From assembly GCA_025449845.1 (NCBI GenBank), contig JANWIP010000031.1, positions 62,001-126,000 on the forward strand: 64,000 nt of DNA, in the 5' to 3' direction. This DNA comes from Solirubrobacteraceae bacterium (GTDB lineage: Bacteria; Actinomycetota; Thermoleophilia; Solirubrobacterales; Solirubrobacteraceae). The translations under genes were made by a program, and so were the position numbers. Shown here piece after piece: positions 24,234 through 29,400 of the stretch. The first letter of the stretch is position 1, and each line of letters opens with the position of its first letter. The notes below the pieces were generated by a model. That model did not search any database. It was given only the letters and a program-made list of their open reading frames with translations, and had not been told where the DNA came from.

Positions 24234-24794
24234 ATGCGCTCAATCTCGATCATCCACGCGTCTGTGTCCAGGTCGGCCCTGTGCCTGCTGACCGTGCTCG
24301 CCATGGCCCTACCCAGTACGGCAGGCGCGGCCGTCTTCGCGCCGCCGGCGGAAACACCAACGACGCCAGCCCCGGCGACCCCAAGCGCCCCAGCAGCAAC
24401 GACGCCAGCTGCGACGCCCACGATTTCCACAGCGCCCGCACCGGCCACAGCCGCGCCCAAGACCTACTCGAAGGGCTCCCACGGTGCCACGACCGCGCCG
24501 AAGTCGGCTGCCCCGGCGGTGACGCAGACAGCACCCGCAGTGACGACTCGGGCGGCGACCGCGACCTCTTCGACGGAATCGAGCTCAAACGGCAACACCG
24601 CGCTGATCTTCGCGTTCGTCGCCGCCGTAGCACTGCTGGTCGGAATCGCCTACATGATCCTGCGCGACGCACATAGCGTCGCTCCTGTCAGTGACGGCCC
24701 AAGTGGTGGCGGCACGCGTAATTCAGCCGCCCGCCTGCGTCAGCGCCGCCGTAAAGCCAAGGCCGCGCGGCAGCAGCGCAAGCGCAATCGCTAG
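24234..24794 (+). CDS. Small Thr/Ala/Pro-rich membrane-anchored protein
   Basis: 186 residues from the ATG at 24234, preferred because it gives a signal peptide (ending PSTAGA) at the N-terminus; upstream ATGs at 24123 and 24210 add Arg-rich sequence. After the signal comes a low-complexity Pro/Thr/Ala linker, a Ser/Thr-rich stretch, one membrane helix (TALIFAFVAAVALLVGIAYM) and a short very basic cytoplasmic tail (RQRRRKAKAARQQRKR). The layout suits a wall-spanning stalk anchored in the membrane. Function is unknown. The last 72 bp overlap the read-through tail of hicA on the other strand. Confidence 0.6.
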   Translation: MRSISIIHASVSRSALCLLTVLAMALPSTAGAAVFAPPAETPTTPAPATPSAPAATTPAATPTISTAPAPATAAPKTYSKGSHGATTAPKSAAPAVTQTAPAVTTRAATATSSTESSSNGNTALIFAFVAAVALLVGIAYMILRDAHSVAPVSDGPSGGGTRNSAARLRQRRRKAKAARQQRKRNR

Positions 24795-25088
24795 CTTCGG
24801 GATCATCAGCCACCGAACATATGCAATCAGCGATCGAACGCCTTGACGCTTTAGCCGTCGAGGTTTAGAGGCTGCGGCGCAGTTCCTCGCGCCGTATACA
24901 CCGTCTCGCAGTATTCCGGCCAGCGTGCCGCGTTTCAATTCACGATGCAGTGGCACCACTAGAAGCGCGGCACGGTCTTGGTTCCCAAGTGAGACGTGGC
25001 TTCCTCGTTGGCGGATGACTTCCCAGCCTAGTTTCTTGAGTGCCGCTATTAGTTCGGCGCCGGATATGACCGGCAGACGCTCGCTCAC
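24723..25088 (-). CDS. hicA: HicA-type mRNA interferase toxin, probably frameshifted near the end
   Basis: The first ~55 residues are a normal HicA: ISGAELIAALKKLGWEVIRQ, the catalytic-His GSHVSL, then VVPLHRELKRGTLAGILRD. HicA toxins usually end about 12 residues later. Here the frame runs on for 65 unrelated residues into the neighbouring gene. A shift of one base near 24888-24893 would instead give a REELRRSL ending and a stop at 24865-24867, matching the family C-terminus. So the gene has probably lost one base, or the sequence has an error. It starts on the hicB stop (GTGA overlap). Confidence 0.7.
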   Translation of the reverse strand: MSERLPVISGAELIAALKKLGWEVIRQRGSHVSLGNQDRAALLVVPLHRELKRGTLAGILRDGVYGARNCAAASKPRRLKRQGVRSLIAYVRWLMIPKLAIALALLPRGLGFTAALTQAGG

Positions 25089-25309
25089 GCAGGGACCGCG
25101 AGTTTGCGGCGCACAACACCGGAGTCAATCGGGCGGTGCTGATCGCGGAGACCTTCGATGTAGAGGGCTAGAGCCTCTTCCGCATGTTGTGTCGCGTCGG
25201 TGAGATCGTCGCCCTGGGTGTGTAGACCTGGGAGTTCGGGCGCGTATACGTGATAGCCGCCTTCGTCCTGGGGCTCAAAGAAGAAGTCGATCTCGCGGAC
25301 CTCAGCCAT
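25085..25309 (-). CDS. hicB: HicB-type antitoxin
   Basis: 74 residues from the ATG at 25309. It has the HicB partial RNase H-like fold: an acidic beta strand, GGYHVYAPELPGLHTQGDDL, then a helix with ATQHAEEALALYIEGLR. It lacks an obvious added DNA-binding domain. Antitoxin precedes toxin, with a four-base overlap. HicB neutralises HicA, which cleaves mRNA. No ribosome-binding site is seen, so the mRNA may be nearly leaderless. An upstream in-frame extension to 25465 is not conserved in character. Confidence 0.75.
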   Translation of the reverse strand: MAEVREIDFFFEPQDEGGYHVYAPELPGLHTQGDDLTDATQHAEEALALYIEGLRDQHRPIDSGVVRRKLAVPA

Positions 25310-25476
25310 GCTGCCAGCATAGCGTGACGGGCTTGGGCGCTTAATCAGCCGCTGATATGGAGCATTCCTACGTACCTTGAAGGGAGTGCGGCACCCTCCA
25401 CGGAGTGGCTCGTAGCTTCGCAAAACCTCGCGTTTTGCAGAGCTTTCTCCTTGTTTACATAACATACATTATCGGG

Positions 25477-25484
25477 CATCGCTC
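25477..25484. repeat. Left target-site duplication (8 bp)
   Basis: CATCGCTC directly abuts the left terminal repeat and recurs exactly at 28167-28174 beyond the right one. Eight to nine bases is the usual IS1-family duplication size. Confidence 0.9.
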
Positions 25485-25503
25485 GGTGGTGTCTCAGTTT
25501 GAG
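25485..25503 (+). repeat. Left terminal inverted repeat
   Basis: GGTGGTGTCTCAGTTTGAG, an exact inverse of 28148-28166. It begins GG, as IS1-family ends do. The transposase stop codon (25494-25496) lies inside it. Confidence 0.93.
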
Positions 25504-26342
25504 AGTTCGATGATCTCTGCTGCCGTCCAGACGTGATCGGCGACGCCCGCGGCCATCGCCGGGGTGCGCGGGTATGGGTTGGCGAGGGTCTTATGCGGCC
25601 GGGCGAAGTTGTAGTGCATGAAGTGGATCGCTACGGTGGCGGCGTGGTTCTCGATCTTCTTGCTGAAGCCGTTGGTGAGCCGGGTGAAGCGCCGCATGTG
25701 CATCCGCATCGTGAGGTTCTGCCGCTCCACGTAGCTGGTGCTGACCTTCGCCAGGTCTGGGTCTCCGAGCCGGACTTTGGTCTTGGTGCCGATGCAGGCG
25801 GGTGGGCTGTAGCGGCCTTCGCCCGCATAGGGCGTCTTGTACTGCTTGATGATCTGCCCCCAGTCAACCTCGTCCTTATTGAAGACCAGGCCGACGACCC
25901 CGACGTAGGTTTGGTGGGCGTCTGTGCTGAGCTGGATGCGGCCCTGCACGCGCCCCTTGAGGTCTTCGATAAAGGCCCAGCAGTCGCCCAGCTTCCGCCC
26001 TCCGACGAGCCACGTCACCGCGAGCTTCGAGTTAGCGTCCAGCGCAACCCACGTCCAGACATCGCCGTAGCCGAACTCGCCCTTGTGCTCCTCGGGCACG
26101 TTGCGCTGTTTGCTGTAGCAGAAGCTCCATATCTCGTCTGCCTCGATCGTCTTGCACGGCAGGTCTCGTAGCGTGCGGTCTTGGTACCCGGCGCAAGCCT
26201 CGCCCACGTCGGTCAGGAGCTTCGAGACGGTGTTGATCGAGACGCCCGCCATGCGGGTCGTAGCGCGAAGGCTATTCCCCTCGACCAGCATCGAGAGGAT
26301 TTGAGCGCGCTTCTCGGTGCTCAGCCTGTTCATACTGAACAT
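25494..26342 (-). CDS. IS1-family DDE transposase
   Basis: 282 residues in one frame; no frameshift is needed, unlike the InsAB' of classical IS1. An N-terminal helix-turn-helix (LVEGNSLRATTRMAGVSINT) precedes the catalytic domain: Asp69 (EADEIWSF), Asp141 (STDAHQTY) and Glu206 (SYVERQNLTMRMH). The RRFTRLTNGFSKK and NHAATVAIHFMHYNF segments complete the IS1 C-terminal signature. A second ATG at 26333 could also be the start. The gene is intact and ends inside the left terminal repeat. Confidence 0.92.
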   Translation of the reverse strand: MFSMNRLSTEKRAQILSMLVEGNSLRATTRMAGVSINTVSKLLTDVGEACAGYQDRTLRDLPCKTIEADEIWSFCYSKQRNVPEEHKGEFGYGDVWTWVALDANSKLAVTWLVGGRKLGDCWAFIEDLKGRVQGRIQLSTDAHQTYVGVVGLVFNKDEVDWGQIIKQYKTPYAGEGRYSPPACIGTKTKVRLGDPDLAKVSTSYVERQNLTMRMHMRRFTRLTNGFSKKIENHAATVAIHFMHYNFARPHKTLANPYPRTPAMAAGVADHVWTAAEIIELSN

Positions 26343-26380
26343 TATGCATGACCGCTCGGACAGAACGATCAGTTTGAGGT

Positions 26381-26578
26381 TTAGCGACTACTTCCGGCCG
26401 CAGATCCGTCTTTAAGAGCACTGGTGGTCTCACGCCATTGCCCGGAGGTCGTCTGACGTGTGTAGCCGCTTCTCTTAGCGAATGGCGCGATCTCTCGCTC
26501 CATCTTCCGCAGATCGCGCTCTGCGACGTCAAACCGCTTGCGATTGATCTTTTCTAGATCCTTTGTTTGTTTCTTCAT
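26381..26578 (-). CDS. Small basic/charged passenger protein, unknown
   Basis: 65 residues from the ATG at 26578, which overlaps the stop of the protease gene (ATGA). The sequence begins MKKQTKDLEKINRKRF and continues AERDLRKMEREIAPFAKRSG: a charged amphipathic helix, possibly a coiled coil, with a polar tail. No family is recognised. Tight coupling to the protease suggests a partner, adaptor or substrate (inference). It is the last passenger gene before the transposase. Confidence 0.55.
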   Translation of the reverse strand: MKKQTKDLEKINRKRFDVAERDLRKMEREIAPFAKRSGYTRQTTSGQWRETTSALKDGSAAGSSR

Positions 26579-27453
26579 GGTATCCCTGCCGAATAGGAGT
26601 GCTCGGAACTCTCGATGCACTTTGAAACATTAGTTTGAACCAGATTACTAGTGCGGATGTAAAGATCATAGACCGAATGCCACAGATCCGACGCCGCATC
26701 AACTGCCTCGATCACCAAGCCACACCCGGCTGCCTCATCTCGGTAGATTGGGCGACCATGAGTCTTGGTCTGCTCCGGTGAGAGGAACATCTTAATCTTC
26801 TTCAAGATTGCGCTTTGGGAGGAACCTTTCATCATCCCGGATGCCAACTCTCGGGTGGCTATGTCCTGAGATAGCGCAAGCGCTGAGCGCAATTCTGCAA
26901 TCTCACGCTCATCGTAGTTTTGGAGTTGCTGAAGGTAGGGCTGGAGGTTGTTCTTCTCAGCGACCGCGCGCTTGAAGAGGTCGCCATAGCTTTCGACAAT
27001 ATTGAACGCAGAGAACACTCGGTCTCCTTCAGCAACCTGCGGATCAATTGGGCCTAGCTCGGAAGTTGGCCCCATGATGATCTTGCTTGCGCCGAAGCAA
27101 ATCATCGTTCCCGCAGACTTGGCTTTACCCGGGACTATCGCCCAATAGTCATCCGTGCCGCTGTAGGCTCGGCACATGTTGACGATGCGCTCTGCGGCAA
27201 GACCATCTCCGCCAGGCGAGCTAATGCACAGTGCCAACCCCGACGAAAGATCGAGGCTCCGAAGGACGCCCTCAAGCATGTCTGCGTCGGAGTCATCAAT
27301 CATCACCGGGTAGCGAAAGCTCGTGAAGAGGGAGACGACAGGGCGACCAAGATGCTCGGAGATACTTCGAAAGGCATCCTGGCGCGTAGCGTGTCCCTGT
27401 TCTCGCTCCTCAAGCACACGCTCGTAGATGGGGGCACGCCGTGGAGCACTCAT
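26575..27453 (-). CDS. SDH_sah-type ClpP-fold serine protease (passenger)
   Basis: 292 residues from the ATG at 27453, overlapping the upstream stop (ATGA). It matches the serine dehydrogenase proteinase (SDH_sah) family of the ClpP/crotonase superfamily: ISSPGGDGLAAERIV (79-90), nucleophile Ser113 in GKAKSAGTMICFGA, and SELGPIDPQ around Asp137. The fold commonly forms rings with internal active sites. There is no signal peptide or membrane helix, so it is cytoplasmic. The C-terminal half is helical with no extra domain recognised. Its substrate is unknown; carriage by a transposon with a DNA-binding partner is unusual. Confidence 0.82.
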   Translation of the reverse strand: MSAPRRAPIYERVLEEREQGHATRQDAFRSISEHLGRPVVSLFTSFRYPVMIDDSDADMLEGVLRSLDLSSGLALCISSPGGDGLAAERIVNMCRAYSGTDDYWAIVPGKAKSAGTMICFGASKIIMGPTSELGPIDPQVAEGDRVFSAFNIVESYGDLFKRAVAEKNNLQPYLQQLQNYDEREIAELRSALALSQDIATRELASGMMKGSSQSAILKKIKMFLSPEQTKTHGRPIYRDEAAGCGLVIEAVDAASDLWHSVYDLYIRTSNLVQTNVSKCIESSEHSYSAGIP

Positions 27454-27698
27454 TTGGCTTTGCCTGACGACCAACGAATCCGCGCAGCCTTCTGAGCAGC
27501 CGCAGAACGCTCCTCGGGTGTCATCTTGGCTGCACGAGCCTTTCCACCCTTGAGCCCACCACGACGCCCCAGTTCGACGGCAGCCTGGTTCTTTCCTGCC
27601 TCGGTGGCCAGCTCAGTGACATCTCCTGTTGCAAGATCAACGATCAGCTTCCCGAGCTGGTTGGGGTCGCGTGGACGCTTGCGCGAGCGGTCAGGCAT
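27450..27698 (-). CDS. Small basic KGGKA-motif protein (passenger)
   Basis: 82 residues from the ATG at 27698. The N-terminus is basic (PDRSRKRPRDPNQLGKLI), then an acidic middle and the motif GRRGGLKGGKARAAKMTPEE, ending QKAARIRW. Short proteins with this Gly/Lys/Ala motif occur in phage and plasmid contexts and look nucleic-acid binding; I know of no firm function. An alternative far-upstream start (27917) would overlap the winged-helix gene and is unlikely. The gene overlaps the protease start by four bases. Confidence 0.65.
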   Translation of the reverse strand: MPDRSRKRPRDPNQLGKLIVDLATGDVTELATEAGKNQAAVELGRRGGLKGGKARAAKMTPEERSAAAQKAARIRWSSGKAK

Positions 27699-27765
27699 GG
27701 CCAGAGCGTAGCAAGCACTGCGGAACGCCACGCCCAGCCCAGCGACATGGCGCTCCCCGCGGTGT

Positions 27766-28035
27766 TCAGATCGCGCCGACGCCGATCTCGCTGGCGCGGC
27801 GTGCCGCGCGCGTCGGCCACACGAACCCATCCGAGCTATGCACCAGCCCGGCCGCGACCAACCGATTGATCGAGTCTTCAGCCCGATAGACGCTCTGAAG
27901 CTCACGGGCGATCTCACCCAAACTCCACGGGTAAGACGGGGAGTCCAACAGCATCCGATCCAAGAGGCCGCTATCGCGCGTCTCCTCGCTCAAACGGTCC
28001 TCATCCTGCTCGTCGTCAATACGATGGTTTTGCAT
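27766..28035 (-). CDS. Small winged-helix protein, first passenger gene
   Basis: 89 residues. After an acidic N-terminus comes a compact winged helix: LLDSPSYPWSLGEIARELQ, then VYRAEDSINRLVAAGLVHSS and an aromatic wing (GFVWPTRAARRA). As the first gene of the passenger operon it may be its regulator. The start ATG is 113 bp from the right terminal repeat. An inverted repeat GGCCCCGG/CCGGGGCC (28059-28066 and 28084-28091) upstream is a possible operator. The assignment to a winged-helix fold is from pattern only. Confidence 0.6.
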   Translation of the reverse strand: MQNHRIDDEQDEDRLSEETRDSGLLDRMLLDSPSYPWSLGEIARELQSVYRAEDSINRLVAAGLVHSSDGFVWPTRAARRASEIGVGAI

Positions 28036-28147
28036 GGGAGGTCACTCTCCTGTGTCACGGCCCCGGGGCAGTTAGCGCTGTCGCCGGGGCCAACTCGTTC
28101 GGATACAGCCGACGCTAGACACTCCCAGCGATCAGCACAAGCCCAAA

Positions 28148-28166
28148 CTCAAACTGAGACACCACC
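28148..28166 (-). repeat. Right terminal inverted repeat
   Basis: CTCAAACTGAGACACCACC is the exact reverse complement of the left end (25485-25503). The two diverge immediately inside the 19 bp. Confidence 0.93.
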
Positions 28167-28174
28167 CATCGCTC
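28167..28174. repeat. Right target-site duplication (8 bp)
   Basis: CATCGCTC, identical to 25477-25484, directly after the right terminal repeat. Confidence 0.9.
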
Positions 28175-28205: not shown

Positions 28206-29336
28206 TTAGGCCGGGACCGGCCAGCTGCGGCCGTTGGCTAGCCACAGCTCAAGAAGCGGGTCGACCACGCGCCATCTGGTCCGCGTTGTCTCGTCGGCTA
28301 CAACATGACCGTCGCGCCGAAGGCGCTCGACTGTGTTCTGGTTGCTGCCCGTCTTGCTGACTCCGTAGCGCTCATGCGCGACGCGGCCCTGCAACGGAGT
28401 CGTCCGCTCTGAGATTACGGCCATCAGTCGCCGCTCGCTGTTGTTCCAGGAGTCCCACGCCGCCTGCACCTCCGGGTTTGCGTCATGCGTGGCGCCGGAG
28501 AATGCCATGACCCACTCCTCGCTGGTAGCGGTTGCTGAAGGTCTTGTGTTCTCGTAGAGATGATGTGCGAGCAGCATCGCGCGCTGCGGATGCCCGTCCG
28601 CGGTCGCCAGCAGCAACTCGAGCGCCTCGCCTGGGTCGCGGCTTGCGCTTTCAAATCGGGACCCGATGTACTCAGCCAGATCCTCAGCGTCGAGTCGTGG
28701 GAGATCTACGGGCTTGGCCTGCGCGAAGAACGCGTGGCGGCGGTCTGAGAAAAGGTCATGCATCAAGCCGGGGTGAGATCCGGAGAACACATAGGCGGCG
28801 ACCTTGCCATGCTGCTCGAGCTCAGAGCGGATCGTCCCCGTCAGGGCATCTCCCACCCGCACGACGTCCTGAAACTCATCGAACGCGATCGCGCACCGGC
28901 GCCCATGACGTTCCTGCAACCGGCGCGGCAATGTGAGCCGATCCAGCAAGCCGGGCACGTGTGTTTCAGGCGCCACCTCCACGCCAATCCCGGCTGGCGC
29001 CGCCTTCACGCGTGGCCGGAGCGTTGAGACGACACCGGCAAACCAGCGCTTCAGCAGCCCGTCGAGCTGCTCGCGGTAGGCGCGCTCAATGCGCTCAGCG
29101 ACATCGGCCGCGCTCAGCACGCCAAGGAAGTTCACGTAGATCGGCACGAAGCCGTCTTTGTCTGCCGCCGCCAGCGCAGCCTTGAGCAACGACGTTTTCC
29201 CATATCGGCGTGGTCCCTGCAGACGGCTGTTGCGGGTCTCGGCAATGCGATCCCGTAGTAGGGCCAGCTCAGCGGTCCGTCCGGCGAGCACCGCGGGCGG
29301 CTCAAGCGGATCCTCATAGATGAACGGGCTACTCAT
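28206..29336 (-). CDS. AAA/STAND-like ATPase with C-terminal winged helix
   Basis: 376 residues from the ATG at 29336 (MSSPFIYEDP); an in-frame GTG at 29354 lies within the operator palindromes and is less likely. It resembles the archaeal-ATPase family: FAGR-like LAGRTAELALLRDRI, Walker A GPRRYGKTSLL (41-51), Walker B CAIAFDEFQDV (about 148-158), sensor YVFSGSHPG, and a C-terminal winged helix (NTVERLRRDGHVVADE). Family members are often in accessory regions, but few have known roles. It is a single gene between two hairpins, preceded by a dense palindromic operator cluster, so it is probably tightly regulated. Confidence 0.8.
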   Translation of the reverse strand: MSSPFIYEDPLEPPAVLAGRTAELALLRDRIAETRNSRLQGPRRYGKTSLLKAALAAADKDGFVPIYVNFLGVLSAADVAERIERAYREQLDGLLKRWFAGVVSTLRPRVKAAPAGIGVEVAPETHVPGLLDRLTLPRRLQERHGRRCAIAFDEFQDVVRVGDALTGTIRSELEQHGKVAAYVFSGSHPGLMHDLFSDRRHAFFAQAKPVDLPRLDAEDLAEYIGSRFESASRDPGEALELLLATADGHPQRAMLLAHHLYENTRPSATATSEEWVMAFSGATHDANPEVQAAWDSWNNSERRLMAVISERTTPLQGRVAHERYGVSKTGSNQNTVERLRRDGHVVADETTRTRWRVVDPLLELWLANGRSWPVPA

Positions 29337-29350
29337 GGTGACGTAGGATA

Positions 29351-29400
29351 GCACCTATGGGTGCCATAACATAGCACTAAATAGTGCCGTAATATGGCAC
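29351..29400 (-). promoter_or_regulatory. Cluster of palindromic operators before the ATPase gene
   Basis: Three palindromes in 50 bp: GCACCTATGGGTGC (29351-29364), GTGCCATAACATAGCAC (29361-29377) and GTGCCGTAATATGGCAC (29384-29400). They share GTGC/GCAC arms; the last two are 17 bp each, with a 6-bp spacer, putting centres 23 bp apart. The region is much more AT-rich than its surroundings. They sit 15-64 bp upstream of the start, consistent with a repressor over the promoter. Confidence 0.7.

Follow-up and report, generated by a model that had tools for sequence, protein, structure and literature searches.

A 2,682-bp unit that reads as a complete transposon lies at positions 25485–28166 of the window, by which we mean the whole stretch of 64,000 nucleotides analysed (from contig JANWIP010000031.1 of a Solirubrobacteraceae bacterium). 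It contains a transposase gene and four further genes, all on the minus strand. Its termini are perfect 19-bp inverted copies of one another (GGTGGTGTCTCAGTTTGAG), the left one at the transposase end (25485–25503, plus strand) and the right one at 28148–28166 (minus strand), and similar ends occur in related elements. Directly outside them stand the two copies of an 8-bp target duplication, CATCGCTC, at 25477–25484 and 28167–28174. With up to 3 mismatches allowed, an 18-bp form of the end occurs twice in the window (0.02 occurrences expected), and the 19-bp end is present at these two sites only in the 3.27 Mb (36 contigs) of its own genome; no further end-like sequence with up to 3 mismatches was found in the window or that genome beyond the two termini. 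A composite transposon was ruled out, as the genome has one transposase match and one pair of ends. No second copy of the element was found in its own genome, where a match on contig 17 (69%) covers the region of the 89-aa gene only. Searches of that genome and of the genus genomes turned up no other instance of the whole four-gene unit, and an empty site, with both flanks at one place, was not found among the other 23 genus genomes searched.

Read along the minus strand, the element begins with a conserved hairpin leader (28031–28092) and a gene for an 89-aa protein (27766–28035). These are followed by the gene for a small basic protein of 82 aa, here called KGG (27450–27698), a gene for a ClpP-like SDH-type serine protease of 292 aa (26575–27453), a gene for its 65-aa partner, s65 (26381–26578), and the transposase gene (25494–26342; 282 aa). 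Successive genes overlap by ATGA at 27450–27453 (KGG and protease) and 26575–26578 (protease and 65-aa gene). The transposase gene starts about 40 bp after the 65-aa gene on the same strand, and may share a transcript with the three genes before it. An earlier note, made from the sequence alone, had proposed exact boundaries and an intact DDE transposase whose stop codon sits inside the left repeat; both claims hold, the boundaries to the base and the reading frame over all 282 codons. Its "four-gene operon" needs dividing: there are four genes and the last three are joined by ATGA overlaps, but the 89-aa gene stands apart from this three-gene unit, 67 bp upstream, without an overlap and with a conserved leader of its own.

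The transposase represents a divergent branch of the IS1 family. It matches the Pfam domain DDE_Tnp_IS1 (PF03400) at 28.1 bits (cut-off 24.1) and the NCBI equivalog NF033558 at 63.9 bits, which is under the cut-off of 100; several relatives are labelled 'IS1 family transposase' in plasmid records. The terminal motif of the IS1 family is GGT..TG, and the window element has ends of this type together with a duplication within the family's 8–9 bp. Classical IS1 elements are short (<1 kb) and carry no passengers, and ISfinder includes single-ORF (open reading frame) and large-element subgroups of the family. The two-ORF frameshift layout is absent here, the transposase being encoded in one ORF as it is in nine aligned relatives, and with 2,682 bp and four further genes the unit is neither short nor passenger-free. 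Judged by these features, the unit is an IS1-family transposon that is complete, has a single transposase ORF and carries passenger genes. In a genome of the same genus (G205) a transposase lies at 1370–2224 of a 3,244-bp contig, and among annotated phages a single record matched (33.6%).

Relatives were collected by a transposase pattern: at least 554 of at least 587 matches in genome_contigs, and 206 of 233 in viral contigs, proved to be relatives. From each of these two sources the best 80 were retained, so the sample described below is the part of the clade closest to the window transposase; of 23 plasmid records matching the transposase, the first 5 were added. This gave 182 transposase hits (loci L053–L236 without L077, a duplicate of L058; 81 viral, 80 from genome_contigs, 15 from genomes, 5 from plasmids, and the window). 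The relatives are about 48–71% identical to the window transposase and, by record title, come from many phyla. An element was considered delimited when its ends began with GG, agreed at 11 or more of 16 positions (mostly all 16) and adjoined an exact 8-bp duplication. In this way 79 of the 182 hits could be delimited, the window included, with 77 different 8-bp duplications (L201 and L219 repeat L200 and L218); the other 103 had no exact end pair, which contig edges explain in some cases. The delimited elements measure 1.3–7.5 kb (median 2.9 kb), and a common form of their ends is GGTAGTGKSTCAGTTTGA. The sole 7.5-kb element contains, by eye, IS256-like insertions. One same-family element (L062, in G087:C10) with KGG, an SDH-type protease and a transposase is broken by three ORFs that look, by eye, like IS256-type transposases.

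The differing duplications among relatives indicate that such units move whole. In genome G252 there are three elements that differ from each other in duplication and in cargo ORFs; one is split across two contigs, and its flanking 8 bp are mutually complementary. We also scanned viral contigs for the ends without a transposase seed. Among the 80 loci in the matches listed, at least 21 were units with paired ends and exact duplications: 9 with transposase and KGG, a 454-bp remnant with a piece of transposase, 4 with KGG only and 7 with neither. Thus 9 of the 10 units having any transposase match also have KGG, and 5 of these 9 were already in the set of 79. The seven units with neither are 200–759 bp long and resemble miniature inverted-repeat transposable elements (MITEs), with clade ends and exact 8-bp duplications (L356, L371, L308, L306, L317, L349 and L368). 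On these comparisons, the window element belongs to a cross-phylum clade of IS1-type cargo transposons. No published description of this clade, or of IS1-family elements with KGG or defence cargo, was recognised in open-access titles and abstracts, a scope that excludes ISfinder and most subscription papers. As far as this search goes, the branch, its constant gene and its apparent leaning towards defence cargo are undescribed. A transposon with passengers is a known kind, and parts of the clade may be catalogued in ISfinder.

The second constant feature of the clade is KGG, a protein with the motifs D.N.LA..IV..AT and GR.GG.KGGKARA...R..IA.KAA.ARW. It is present in 78 of the 79 delimited elements (E < 1e-3) according to a profile search seeded from the same set of elements; the exception, L069, has a transposase just 31% identical to that of the window. 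At E < 1e-5, KGG lies near 145 of the 172 transposase hits of at least 300 bits, whether or not ends were found. Several weaker KGG matches retain the N-terminal motif only. Its position is also regular: of 78 elements, 72 have it on the transposase's strand, 74 have the cargo between it and the transposase, and in 48 it lies no more than 120 nt from the far end. Whole genomes gave the same association. Of 199 genomes of the class, 15 had the transposase, 11 had KGG and 10 had both (p = 1.5e-12), always on one contig within about 4 kb. For 296 genomes of the phylum, a sample that overlaps the first, the numbers were 21, 21 and 11 (p = 2.8e-9), with 9 of the 11 on one contig. A single-sequence tblastn search of plasmids found no KGG match at E 1e-3, with a query too weak to recover the KGG of L054, where the protein is annotated as 'histone H1'. 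By its distribution, KGG is a core gene of the clade, and the remaining passengers are exchangeable cargo.

These comparisons also change how the window element is seen. The earlier note had set it apart from short classical IS1 elements, counted four passengers and taken its identical ends to suggest a recent move. It is instead typical of a cargo-bearing clade, to whose core genes one of the four supposed passengers, KGG, belongs. The sequence of the ends is conserved throughout the clade and so is kept by function; their identity therefore does not date the move and is weak evidence of a recent one. For the clade, the check that the note proposed, a search for the ends together around the genes and for differing duplications elsewhere, supported mobility as units. 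For the window unit itself, no second instance with the same four genes was seen in its own genome or in the genus. The closest element in gene content, L127 from Candidatus Scalindua, has KGG, the protease, a 62-aa gene and the transposase, and lacks the 89-aa gene.

What might KGG do? The family is strongly basic (median isoelectric point 10.6), and the window protein is modelled as three helices (mean pLDDT 81, pTM 0.39). Comparison of this fold with the PDB gave nothing better than E 7, and the best Pfam match among 38 members had an E of 0.016; all 38 matched PHROG 2384, a family annotated as of unknown function. KGG could bind DNA and serve the element, by binding its ends, by regulating transposition, or by taking the part that InsA plays in classical IS1. 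A place in the transposition machinery is our first guess, and a partnership with the cargo is not much less likely. On the latter account, KGG would be a general antitoxin-like or regulatory partner of the cargo modules, and the transposase would merely travel with it. This is a substantial possibility, which we nevertheless place below even. In its favour, KGG is kept without the transposase in four mini-elements, several P63C-type cargo proteins begin with a KGG-like domain, and the window KGG gene overlaps the protease gene by ATGA. However, KGG stays constant as the neighbouring cargo changes and the cargo is often on the other strand; the protease pair occurs without KGG at L302; and KGG distances track transposase distances, albeit weakly (rho 0.284, with 0 of 2000 permutations as high). 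Full-length KGG without a transposase was seen at three further places (L276, L277 and L278), with a clade end beside L277 only. A KGG-like N-terminus, seen as a secondary KGG match, belongs to long cargo proteins that look P63C-like by eye at L081, L085, L096, L120, L125, L138, L139, L182 and L234.

The cargo itself was compared with a transposase tree of 74 of the 79 elements (L201 and L219 were excluded, as were rows shorter than 240 aa or lacking KGG), a quick tree in which 28 of 71 inner branches are open. Cargo classes required 32 changes on this tree compared to 36.4 when shuffled, and 3 of 200 shuffles were as low. Cargo resembling PD-lambda-2 was clustered (7 changes compared to 11.4, with 0 of 500 as low), and cargo with the SDH-type protease required 5 changes for 5 rows. 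These counts therefore show some inheritance of cargo and much exchange, with the cargo weakly tied to the transposase tree.

To describe the content of the cargo, 142 of 170 cargo ORFs of at least 85 aa were scanned against Pfam and PADLOC in batches of 66 and 76. Excluded from the scan were L062, L069, L201, L219, a window ORF that overlaps the start of the transposase gene, and ORFs judged to be antisense or minor readings; because ORF calling was mechanical, the cargo and flank sets include some 'genes' that are not real. For 25 of the 30 Pfam families in each batch, the commonest were HTH_3 (11 + 11), Peptidase_M78 (10 + 7), P63C (6 + 4) and SDH_protease (4 + 1), with HigB (3) and SocA/Panacea (2) in the second batch; GmrSD, Mrr, Abi_2, AAA and DNA methylase matched once each. 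Among the first 25 families listed, PADLOC gave PD-Lambda-2_B (3 + 11), RmrA (up to 10 + 5) and capP (9 + 3), counts that overlap on the same proteins. Strong single PADLOC matches included HEC-06 (8e-158, L082) and HEC-04 (1.3e-43, L089). L143 and L177 share a set of a 158–159-aa protein, an XRE-type protein and a 98–99-aa protein, and the cluster of 98–99-aa proteins is presumably the source of the three HigB matches. As a control, 86 genes flanking elements of the second batch only (L132–L234; the longest ORFs within 2.5 kb, not size-matched) matched 48 PADLOC families, none of them in more than two proteins; the 25 of the 48 that were listed are all methyltransferases. The cargo of the clade thus appears rich in toxin-antitoxin and anti-phage proteins, unlike the genes flanking this one batch, and often forms a module of one of these two kinds.

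The cargo module in the window is a protease with a small partner. The protease matches SDH_protease (PF01972) at 42.4 bits (cut-off 31.3) and the NCBIfam family Clp_like_SDH at 52, which is below the cut-off of 250. The core of a poor structural model (mean pLDDT 57.5) best matches ClpP (E 6e-5), with TM-scores of 0.27–0.31 relative to the query. Ser113 in KSAGT is the candidate nucleophile, a role that we assume carries over from ClpP and NfeD proteases. An SDH-type protease is found in 6 of the 79 delimited elements. In L127 the protease and a small protein behind it are repeated, the protease gene lying in two frames whose pieces are 58 and 56% identical to the window protein; the transposases of the two elements lie apart in the tree despite their related proteases. 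On the chromosome of another actinobacterium (G398, locus L302), a protease 57% identical to that of the window is followed by a homologue of the small partner (E 1.5e-4), with no KGG, clade transposase or clade ends nearby. About 1 kb upstream of this pair is an ORF (L302 3789–4553) that looks, by eye, like an IS1595/ISXO2-type transposase. A second close relative of the protease, in G451, is a contig-edge fragment with an internal stop. Because the pair recurs in L127 and, free of a transposon, in G398, the protease and the 65-aa protein form a module of their own. No relatives of the protease were found in viral contigs in two pattern-based scans, and seven annotated phage records have relatives that are at most 41% identical. 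PADLOC 2.0.0 gave no match for the 65-aa and 89-aa proteins at E up to 0.1, and a weak one (0.057) for KGG.

The company that the protease pair keeps suggests that it may act as a toxin or in defence. It could instead control the element itself, for instance through breakdown of a host factor or of the transposase; it does stand directly upstream of the transposase gene, on the same strand and across a gap of about 40 bp, and the transcript may be common. We think this unlikely, as such proteases are carried by just 6 of the 79 elements and the pair stands alone on the G398 chromosome. If the pair is a defence or toxin module, the 65-aa protein would most likely restrain the protease or feed it substrate, and the protease would be free to damage the cell upon infection or when the module is lost, as in addiction or abortive infection.

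The 89-aa protein is winged-helix-like by eye and has no Pfam family above cut-off. Its gene is a member of a genus-wide family with a conserved hairpin leader, and a relative lies inside the ends of a same-genus element, L250. Comparison of the window leader with six genus copies (L254, L255, L256, L257, L258 and L259; 7 sequences in all) gave a stem of 12 pairs in which 96.3% of cells are paired. Three pairs are changed on both sides, a value reached by 10 of 500 shuffles, and there is an invariant core around CAGC..AACTG. With E values up to 1 allowed, neither the window copy nor the surrounding region 24500–29500 matches a known RNA family in Rfam; the leader is possibly a cis-acting RNA. 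From these relationships, the host genus is the probable source of the gene and its leader.

Just left of the insertion site is a HicA/HicB-like pair (24723–25088 and 25085–25465, minus strand; PF07927 and PF15919), so that the order on the minus strand is leader, 89-aa gene, element core, HicB and HicA. In genome G208, a relative of the 89-aa protein (37.5% identical) and its leader stand directly before HicB and HicA (L426 2362–3112), with no KGG, transposase or clade ends at the locus, and the 89-aa gene may thus be an old neighbour of HicBA. By eye, the G208 contig also contains relaxase-like and integrase-like ORFs. Three of the 4 genus HicBA places examined are without the 89-aa gene. 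The two orders invite the explanation that a core running from KGG to the transposase was inserted between an old 89-aa gene and HicBA, the same order being found with the core in between in the window and without any element in G208, and that the outer right repeat arose later or by chance. This seems improbable to us. On the far side of the 89-aa gene stands a repeat that matches the left one perfectly over 19 bp and has the matching 8-bp duplication, and the window contains no other end-like sequence; moreover, the G208 protein is just 37.5% identical, three of the four HicBA places lack the gene, and L250 carries its relative within its ends. Directly right of the element, the window has an AAA-ATPase-like gene (28206–29354, minus strand; weak Pfam matches below cut-off), and related DNA occurs at several sites in the genus.

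Overall, we consider it likely that the window element represents a clade of IS1-type transposons with two core genes and exchangeable, often defence-like, cargo. The ends and duplication, the clade, the linkage of KGG, the exchange of cargo, its enrichment in defence-like proteins and the domain match of the protease are read from sequence, whereas the roles of KGG and of the protease pair and the source of the 89-aa gene are inferred. Several observations weigh against this reading. The linkage of KGG to the clade was measured with a profile seeded from the counted set, and short basic proteins match easily; at E < 1e-5, KGG is found in 72 of 76 delimited elements and fails in 4, and 27 of the 172 strong transposase hits stand without a neighbouring KGG, although for 8 of these 3.5 kb or more of upstream DNA was available. 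In G417 and G484, from the phylum sample, KGG-like and transposase-like matches are on separate contigs, and in family f22 C-terminal KGG-like proteins of 56–59 aa occur alone. Neither core gene had a match in the seven MITE-like units, and the mini-elements L324, L335, L337 and L366 (819–1142 bp) contain KGG and a few small ORFs without a transposase. The spread of cargo classes over the tree is not fully random, PD-lambda-2-like cargo being clustered, and the tree itself has the open branches given above. When ten cargo proteins were scanned singly, 5 had a PADLOC match and 5 had none; those without included both proteins that accompany PD-Lambda-2_B in L143, the protein of L060 presumed to be the RosmerTA partner, and a P63C-type protein of L125; the window protease had none at E up to 0.1 either. 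Finally, in G208 the relative of the 89-aa gene stands before HicB and HicA without any element, in the order seen around the window's element, and yet here the gene lies inside the repeats and the duplication. The weakest alternative, an ordinary IS1 whose passengers are accidental, or else an island or composite transposon whose ends match by chance, starts from the general experience that transposases often lie in gene-rich mobile regions, and is highly improbable given 79 delimited elements with 77 different duplications, which contradict chance passengers, and a genome with two copies of the end and one transposase, which is hence not composite.

In the two-core-gene reading, the transposase and KGG sit mostly on opposite sides of the exchangeable cargo. 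The transposase would pair and cut at the 19-bp ends and insert the unit with an 8-bp duplication; the product of this transposition is read from the sequence, and the reaction is assigned because the enzyme belongs to the IS1/DDE family. The cargo module would pay for the element's upkeep, and in the window the 89-aa gene with its leader was probably picked up on the way from the host genus. A stronger version, which we hold tentatively and at somewhat less than even confidence, is that an undescribed cross-phylum branch of IS1 type serves as a dedicated shuttle for defence and toxin-antitoxin modules, with a two-gene engine and a refilled cargo slot, and that the window's protease pair is a new proteolytic defence system. 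Defence genes move between genomes; to our knowledge, small vehicles that carry single defence modules are poorly described. With recognisable ends, a KGG marker and a cargo slot, candidate defence and toxin-antitoxin modules could be listed by reading between the ends, and the accessory protein of this IS1 relative could be tested directly for a role in transposition.

How does the element compare with known systems? With the IS1 family it shares the DDE_Tnp_IS1 domain, GGT..TG ends and the 8-bp duplication. In contrast to classical IS1, which has two overlapping ORFs with a frameshift and measures less than 1 kb, the window clade has a single transposase ORF, spans 1.3–4.8 kb except for one 7.5-kb element, and adds the constant KGG gene and cargo. 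Frameshifting between ORFs in the IS1 family is described in PMC3196728. Transposons of the Tn3 family and other passenger transposons are likewise units with passengers, with unrelated transposase, ends and duplication. Toxin-antitoxin pairs are among the passengers of such transposons. Passenger genes on Tn3 transposons are described in PMC7371123. The commonest recognisable cargo of the clade resembles the XRE-peptidase proteins of PD-lambda-2, described as a three-part system in PMC9519451, and of RosmerTA (PMC10440598); the trio at L143 and L177 recalls the three parts of PD-lambda-2. The window cargo, an SDH protease pair, is neither. Its protease resembles ClpP, SppA and SDH-type proteases in its Pfam domain, its SAGT and LGPIDPQ motifs and possibly the ClpP-like core that the poor model predicts, and differs from them in falling under the Clp_like_SDH cut-off, in having a 65-aa partner and in being borne on a transposon.

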